From assembly GCF_000021325.1 (NCBI RefSeq), contig NC_011365.1, positions 1,336,501-1,400,500 on the forward strand: a stretch of 64,000 bases of DNA, given 5' to 3'. Positions within the stretch are counted from its first letter, which is position 1. Each line of letters begins with the position of its first letter. This stretch comes from Gluconacetobacter diazotrophicus PA1 5. GTDB lineage: Bacteria; Pseudomonadota; Alphaproteobacteria; Acetobacterales; Acetobacteraceae. The notes under the pieces were generated by a model that saw only the letters and a program-made list of their open reading frames with translations, ran no database searches and was not told the DNA's origin. Positions 3,091-4,117 of the stretch are shown piece by piece. The translations under genes and the position numbers were made by a program.

Positions 3091-3825
3091 TCAGGCGACC
3101 GAAAGCGCCGCCGAGCCGACGACCGGCCTGGGTACCGTCATGGGGGCCACGCCCCCGTCCCCCCGAAGCATGTAGCCCTGGCCCCAGACCGTGGCGATCA
3201 GCGACCCTGCCCCCGCCTGCTGCAGTTTCTTGCGCACCTTGCAGATGAAGACGTCGATGATCTTCATCTCCGGCTCGTCCATGCCGCCATAGAGATGGTC
3301 GAGGAAGGCGTATTTGGTCAGGACCGTTCCCTTGCGCAGCAGCAGCAGTTCCAGGACCAGGTATTCCTTGCCGGTCAGGTGGACGGGCCGCCCGTTCACC
3401 GTCACCTCGCGGCTGTCCAGCGACAGCCGCAACGGTCCGGCATGCAGGATCGGCTGGCAATATCCCTTGGACCGGCGGACCACCGCCTGGATTCGGGCCG
3501 CGAGTTCCGGCGCGTCGTAAGGTTTGGTGATGTAATCGTCGGCACCGGCCGAAAAGGCCCGGACCTTCGCCTGCGGACCGCCCAGGCTGGACAGGGCGAC
3601 GATCGGCGTTTCCCGGCGTGCCGCCCGGGTGGCACGCAGGACCTCGTACCCATCGATATCCGGCAGAACCATTTCCAGCAGGGCAAGATCGTAATCATAG
3701 CGCCGGAGCATTTCGACCGCCTCATGTCCCGTCGCAACATGATCCAGGGCATAGCCGATCGCGCGCAGGGCGCTGGAGGTGCCATGAGCCGTGCCACCAT
3801 CATTCTCGACGAGCAAAACACGCAT
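3091..3825 (-). CDS. CtrA-type response regulator with Glu at the phospho-acceptor position
   Basis: A 244-residue OmpR-class regulator. The receiver domain (about 1-120) starts MRVLLVEND, and the DNA-binding winged helix (about 125-235) carries HLTGKEYLVLELLLLRKGT and LYGGMDEPEMKIIDVF, which closely match CtrA, the alphaproteobacterial cell-cycle and motility master regulator. The start at 3825 aligns with the usual CtrA N-terminus; the frame is open 22 codons further. Key oddity: the acceptor Asp51 is Glu (YDYDLALLEMVLPD), and Asp8 of the acidic pocket is Asn (VEND). The conserved Lys (YITKPYD) is kept. It should therefore not be phosphorylated in the normal way and may behave as always active. 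Whether it is the only CtrA in the genome cannot be seen here. Confidence 0.88.
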   Translation of the reverse strand: MRVLLVENDGGTAHGTSSALRAIGYALDHVATGHEAVEMLRRYDYDLALLEMVLPDIDGYEVLRATRAARRETPIVALSSLGGPQAKVRAFSAGADDYITKPYDAPELAARIQAVVRRSKGYCQPILHAGPLRLSLDSREVTVNGRPVHLTGKEYLVLELLLLRKGTVLTKYAFLDHLYGGMDEPEMKIIDVFICKVRKKLQQAGAGSLIATVWGQGYMLRGDGGVAPMTVPRPVVGSAALSVA

Positions 3826-4117
3826 ATATGCCACCATGAGTTTTGTTAAACCAACATTGCTACCTATAGGTGTATAAATTGTATGACACAATCTTCCCGG
3901 GACAGGTTAGGCATTAATACAGCCGCGTTATCCATCTGATCACGCATATGTTATATCACTCCGCCGTTCAGCACGACGGGCAGCGGAAAGGCATGCGTTC
4001 CGTTTCCGAGTCGGGGCGTGTTTTTCCTTGAACCGGCCCCGAAACCGGCTATACCCACCGCAACCGATCGCCGCGCGGACGCTGGACGCGCGGCGACACC
4101 CCGAACAAGAAACGATC
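3826..4117. other. intergenic region upstream of the ctrA-like gene
   Basis: About 290 bp, clearly more AT-rich than its surroundings between 3830 and 3960, as expected for a promoter region of the leftward ctrA-like gene. I looked for the TTAA-N7-TTAA CtrA box and found only isolated TTAA or GTTA half-sites, not a full motif. No convincing coding frame is present. Confidence 0.5.

Follow-up and report, generated by a model that had tools for sequence, protein, structure and literature searches.

A natural glutamate at the phospho-acceptor site of the single CtrA of Gluconacetobacter diazotrophicus, in a lineage without a detectable ChpT

Here we describe a CtrA orthologue of Gluconacetobacter diazotrophicus PA1 5 whose receiver domain carries glutamate where the phospho-acceptor aspartate is expected. 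Our preferred explanation, to which we give a probability of roughly 65%, is that the genome's single CtrA is an aspartate-less receiver protein that Glu51 keeps in the active state and that is regulated through its amount. The broader proposal, that in the radiation of the acetic acid bacteria CtrA escaped the control of its histidine-kinase relay and stayed 'on' because a natural residue mimics the phosphate, the rest of its pocket decaying meanwhile, has in our judgement slightly better than even odds. The gene lies in a stretch of 64,000 nucleotides (the window), part of a genome of 3,914,947 bases in two contigs, and the features to which we refer are the following.

3091..3825, minus strand: ctrA orthologue of 244 amino acids, with an aspartate-less (Glu51) receiver and an OmpR-type DNA-binding domain (open reading frame, Pfam and NCBIfam)
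3472..3825, minus strand: receiver domain, about residues 1-118 (PF00072 covers residues 3-113)
3166..3393, minus strand: winged-helix DNA-binding domain, residues 145-220 (PF00486)
3802..3804, minus strand: codon 8, Asn, where a metal-binding Asp is expected (sequence)
3673..3675, minus strand: codon 51, GAA (Glu), where the phospho-acceptor Asp is expected (sequence)
3589..3591, minus strand: codon 79, Ser, the Thr/Ser switch residue (sequence and alignment)
3532..3534, minus strand: codon 98, Tyr, the aromatic switch residue (sequence and alignment)
3523..3525, minus strand: codon 101, Lys, the pocket lysine, which is Arg in several relatives (sequence and alignment)
3863..3891, minus strand: candidate sigma-70-like promoter, TTGTGT, a 17-base spacer and TATAGG (upstream alignment)
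3937..3958, minus strand: upstream element TGATATAACATATGCGTGATCA, 22 bases, whose core is conserved across the genus (alignment of 11 upstream rows, nine distinct)

The open reading frame begins with ATG at 3825, its stop codon ends at 3091 and its product starts with MRVLLVEND; the original prediction had placed the gene at the right coordinates, and only its strand had to be corrected, to minus. Pfam finds Response_reg and Trans_reg_C domains in the protein, and the CtrA model NF045991 is the top of 92 NCBIfam families at 314 bits, a match that does not reach the curated cut-off of 350 bits, as is also the case in all 12 genus genomes that have one. On the basis of these matches and of its position inside the Acetobacteraceae CtrA tree (155 family CtrAs and four outgroup rows), the protein is to be regarded as a CtrA orthologue by descent. 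Among named relatives, Gluconacetobacter tumulicola and G. takamatsuzukensis give the best matches.

Translation agrees with the residues that first drew attention to this protein: codon 51, read from 3675 to 3673, is the Glu codon GAA, and Asn stands at residue 8, so that residues 7-9 read Glu-Asn-Asp, with Asp9 present. The pocket lysine is there as well, at position 101 and not at 102 as first numbered. With Glu51 and Asn8, the protein lacks the combination of Asp51 and an acidic pocket that characterizes a canonical phosphorylated CtrA, and it has the properties of an aspartate-less receiver, namely a receiver domain without a phosphorylatable aspartate in which the switch pair, Ser79 and Tyr98, is kept. 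The description of the DNA-binding domain as CtrA-like also stands: PF00486 is present, and relative to four CtrAs that do not belong to the family, the median identity is 48.7% for the receiver, 66% for the DNA-binding domain and 85% for the recognition segment (residues 183-202), while the corresponding medians for ChpT-bearing relatives are 59.3, 70.2 and 90%.

Glu51 is a state shared by a clade and no oddity of one strain. It was found in all ten genus members read, our genome included (G000-G005 and G007-G010; the genus CtrA matches in G006 and G011 lie outside this count), and also in two named Gluconacetobacter records, which add little because the DNA upstream of their ctrA genes does not differ from that found in two of the counted members. 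In addition, G211, another genome of the species, has an identical ctrA sequence through about residue 104, Glu51 included. The presence of Glu51 in this second genome and in the whole genus as read excludes a sequencing error, which the original prediction had named as a finding that would overturn it. Thus, the explanation that Glu51 is either an error or a strain-specific mutation is extremely unlikely, despite the fact that the same gene of G211 (locus L187, C3 830000-838500) has a frame slip near codons 105-116. This slip may be a sequencing error or a true strain difference; G211 may be connected with the case of two sequences of strain PAl 5, which, according to the part of PMC3035290 available, differ at surprisingly many places.

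It had also been suggested that the protein could be a paralogue with a constitutive role. This option was not borne out, as NF045991 has no other match in the genome at E<=1e-60, so that a second canonical CtrA was not found at this threshold, and the state of the protein is common to a clade. Among 13 genus genomes searched in the same way, 12 have exactly one CtrA and the remaining one, which is fragmented and 87% complete, has no match. The next CtrA-like protein of the genome (L007:1429-2262, plus strand), which is encoded on contig C1 outside the window, was rejected as a second canonical CtrA: it is 42% identical, has Gln instead of the acceptor Asp and a pocket that is also broken, and its best NCBIfam family is CtrA at 157 bits, far below the cut-off. 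Neither of the two regulators of the genome that most resemble CtrA thus has the acceptor aspartate. This second regulator adjoins genes for FlaF and a DUF1217 protein, a flagellar neighbourhood, and it may have taken over motility.

The proposed unlinking from the CckA-ChpT phosphorelay holds for ChpT, and with less certainty for CckA. A profile built from ten ChpTs of the family finds ChpT at E<=1e-14 in 116 of 200 Acetobacteraceae genomes; the weakest accepted match has an E value of 3.9e-27, and the best rejected one, 1.8e-11, lies in a 758-residue frame (74 genomes, at a loose E<=0.001). This lineage-specific profile finds no ChpT in our genome, nor in the other genus members of the draw, G001, G002, G003 and G211. 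The alignment of the ten family ChpTs replaced the Pfam ChpT model, which was too blunt: it gave marginal matches in G013, G021, G044, G116 and G190, among others, where the family profile gives none, and it missed G126 and G167. ChpT has therefore been lost from the lineage, since it has no detectable orthologue there. In several ChpT-bearing genomes (for example, G015, G023 and G134) some 6 kb separate ctrA and chpT.

For CckA, the NCBIfam scores of NF046026 do not separate it from other hybrid kinases, and a CckA of the family was used instead as the query against 74 genomes. Four clear orthologues scored at least 446 bits (one of them in the genome from which the query was taken), two weaker candidates scored 334 and 300 bits, and the remaining genomes gave 284 bits or less. 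The best match in our genome, 223 bits, covers the kinase core only, with a query that is not fully sensitive: in eight ChpT-bearing genomes it gave a clear CckA in four, a weak one in two and none distinct in the other two (G128 and G134, with top scores of about 275 bits). Because of these two genomes, the absence of CckA is less firm than that of ChpT, and we say only that CckA has probably been lost too. Two further facts make the absence of CckA less firm. Our genome encodes a hybrid kinase, seen as a 580-residue piece cut at the locus end, whose best NCBIfam model is CckA at 310 bits (cut-off 1000), and cluster D Rhodospirillales, as described in part of PMC2877005, lack chpT and have cckA. 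Our results agree with that account in the absence of ChpT and differ from it in that no CckA orthologue was detected. According to the excerpted text of PMC8116508, chpT, cckA and divL occur in only 27-36% of Rhodospirillales genomes, with divergence hampering their detection.

The comparison of the pocket positions across the Acetobacteraceae that the original prediction had called for shows an association between the state of the pocket and ChpT. An intact pocket, defined as acidic residues at 8 and 9, Asp51 and Lys101, occurs in all 85 CtrAs that were read from ChpT-bearing members of the 200-genome draw, and in only five of 63 from genomes without ChpT (G040, G044, G066, G116 and G221). 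With ChpT, residue 8 is Asp in 84 of 85 proteins and residue 51 is Asp in all 85. Without it, 39 proteins have Glu at residue 51 and 16 have Asp, with Arg in three, Ala in two, and His, Asn and Gly in one each, and residue 8 is Ser (18), Asn (10), Pro (8), Asp (8), Thr (7), Gly (6), Glu (3) or another residue (3). These counts come from 171 ctrA loci read, of which 17 were filtered (truncated or broken, receiver start unaligned, best match not CtrA, or recognition motif altered) and six genus members outside the draw were omitted, leaving 85 CtrAs from the 116 ChpT-bearing genomes and 63 from the 84 without ChpT; the uncounted genomes of the draw were filtered, had no usable match or had a CtrA locus that was not read. 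G083, which carries Asp51 and Pro8, was filtered because of an altered recognition motif.

With relatedness ignored, the association has a Fisher p of 3.5e-25, a value that overstates it because few independent losses underlie it. On a tree of 159 rows, in which columns 7, 8, 9, 51 and 101 were masked, residue 51 changes at least 14 times and ChpT at least six times, and the independent pairs number two on well supported branches and six on all branches. Thus, the association between ChpT and the pocket is consistent, with few events behind it. The pocket changes also came in different orders, as is evident from Acetobacter oeni, A. musti, A. sicerae and A. sacchari, which have Glu51 and otherwise intact pocket residues, and from Komagataeibacter intermedius, K. 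swingsii and K. diospyri, which have Asp51 together with Pro8, Val9 and Arg101; K. xylinus K2G30 combines Glu51 with Pro8, Asn9 and Arg101. It may thus be the charge at residue 51 that matters. Two further patterns were observed among the relatives. Three proteins (L217, L218 and L219, from G148, G091 and G185) have Arg51 and Asp101, so that the pocket charges are exchanged, and retain the recognition helix. Three others (L199, L214 and L215, from G013, G089 and G170) carry Ala or Gly as residue 51 and have lost more of the pocket; these are aspartate-less and cannot be phosphate mimics.

Is the receiver still of use? One could propose that it died after the loss of the relay and has been drifting since, that the DNA-binding domain acts alone and that Glu51 mimics nothing. 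This proposal would account for Arg, Ala, His, Asn or Gly at residue 51 in eight of the 63 relatives without ChpT, and for a median of 9.5 changes per column in the receiver compared with 2 in the DNA-binding domain within the acetic-acid clade. This clade comprises 56 CtrA proteins, with a support of 91, which is below the tool's strong mark, and with long branches in it; 50 of its genomes were tested for ChpT and none has it, the other six, of the same genus, being outside the test. However, residue 51 is acidic in 53 of the 56 (Glu in 43, Asp in 10), whereas residue 8 has drifted to many residues and is non-acidic in 49. Since both positions are Asp in nearly all ChpT-bearing relatives, free decay should hit them alike, and for this reason we read Glu51 as functional. 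The switch residues are mostly retained too, with Ser or Thr at 79 in 56 of 56 and Tyr or Phe at 98 in 52 of 56. Moreover, for 11 closely related species pairs (ten within the genus and one in a sister genus), dN/dS is 0.015-0.133 for the receiver and 0.010-0.200 for the DNA-binding domain. The receiver is therefore under purifying selection, and a dead receiver is unlikely.

Purifying selection and a retained switch pair would also be expected if the receiver had gained another input (a ligand, a partner, Ser/Thr phosphorylation or another modification) that acts through the switch residues, so that CtrA would still be regulated. Comparable inputs are described for other aspartate-less receivers in the available text of PMC4395418. 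We nevertheless consider this explanation doubtful. SciP is linked to CtrA and would be a candidate partner; its family, PF06627, is detected in one of the 200 family genomes and was not found in ours.

We therefore return to a CtrA held active by Glu51. Its ancestor was presumably phosphorylated on Asp51 via CckA and ChpT. ChpT, of which no orthologue is detectable, has vanished from the lineage, and CckA, by a weaker test, probably too; as the sequences show, Asp51 was replaced by Glu and the surrounding metal-binding pocket decayed. The charge at 51 and the Ser79/Tyr98 pair have been retained, and the protein is still under purifying selection. Glu51 most likely keeps the receiver in an active, dimer-forming state, the conserved DNA-binding domain would act constantly on CtrA targets, and CtrA activity would be set by the amounts made and degraded. 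With both the phosphate site and a partner that delivers the phosphate lost, and usually a built-in negative charge at that site, CtrA is probably permanently 'on' in this acetic acid bacterium and in many of its relatives.

That Glu51 mimics phosphorylation is plausible, as it fits the retained charge and switch residues. The same residue change has been engineered: CtrA(D51E) contributes to an allele described as stable and active in Caulobacter (in the excerpt of PMC5189948) and is termed phosphomimetic in Rhodobacter capsulatus (in that of PMC6363796). The change that we describe differs from the engineered one in being natural, common to the genus and beyond, and accompanied by further pocket decay, and its activity is a prediction. 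Against this reading, an Asp-to-Glu change alone often fails to activate receivers, as stated in the available text of PMC4395418, and relatives without ChpT may keep Asp51 (16 of 63) or have a non-acidic residue 51 (8 of 63). A further point against it is that TTAA-N7-TTAA, the site bound by canonical CtrA, shows no excess over other spacings in our genome and a weak signal upstream of ctrA in relatives.

Among the matches listed for our genome, N7 accounts for six of the 33 TTAA pairs with spacers of 4-10 bases, compared with seven for N8 and ten for N10. In relatives, a CtrA box with at most one mismatch lies upstream of ctrA in 32 of 70 loci without ChpT, compared with 15-25 for other spacings, in one of 27 ChpT-bearing relatives and in 10 of 12 loci outside the family; in these counts genomes are grouped by the older Pfam-based ChpT call and shared ancestry is still included, and the signal that they suggest upstream of ctrA is weak. 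The block around the candidate -10 of the putative promoter is conserved in the genus (11 upstream rows, nine distinct), and the element at 3937..3958 does not fit TTAA-N7-TTAA. As for the neighbouring genes, L167-L199 include 22 Glu51 loci, and in 21 of these glmM lies within about 3 kb of ctrA, thiD being detected as well in 14; glmM was not found near ctrA in G021, although this genome has Glu51, nor in seven wider loci from genomes with ChpT.

How does this protein compare with known systems? With the canonical CtrA of Caulobacter and most alphaproteobacteria it shares descent, domain architecture, a conserved recognition helix and the status of sole CtrA. In contrast to the canonical CtrA with its CckA-ChpT relay, it has no acceptor aspartate and a broken metal pocket, in a genome with no detectable ChpT and no detected CckA. 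Regulators without the acceptor aspartate have been described before, such as ChxR of Chlamydia (with Glu at the site), HP1043 of Helicobacter and RitR; in the text of PMC4395418 available, Glu is the commonest substitute in aspartate-less receivers (26%) and the switch residues are generally kept. What differs here is that the regulator is CtrA, which is not named in the available main text of that paper, and that it belongs to a family where the change can be compared with the presence or absence of the relay. A degenerate phosphorelay is already known in the same broad group, the cluster D Rhodospirillales (PMC2877005, PMC8116508), and the excerpts of these two accounts do not mention the state of the CtrA receiver. 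Within the open-licence literature searched, in the portions of text available, we found no report of a CtrA receiver with a natural Glu51.

If our reading is true, CtrA control of the cell cycle or of motility in acetic acid bacteria would run on protein amount alone. The phosphorylation of CtrA is a textbook case of bacterial cell-cycle control. An easily cultured group that apparently runs CtrA without phosphorylation would thus be a natural experiment on which part of this control is needed, and the same experiment bears on the way in which response regulators become independent of their kinases.
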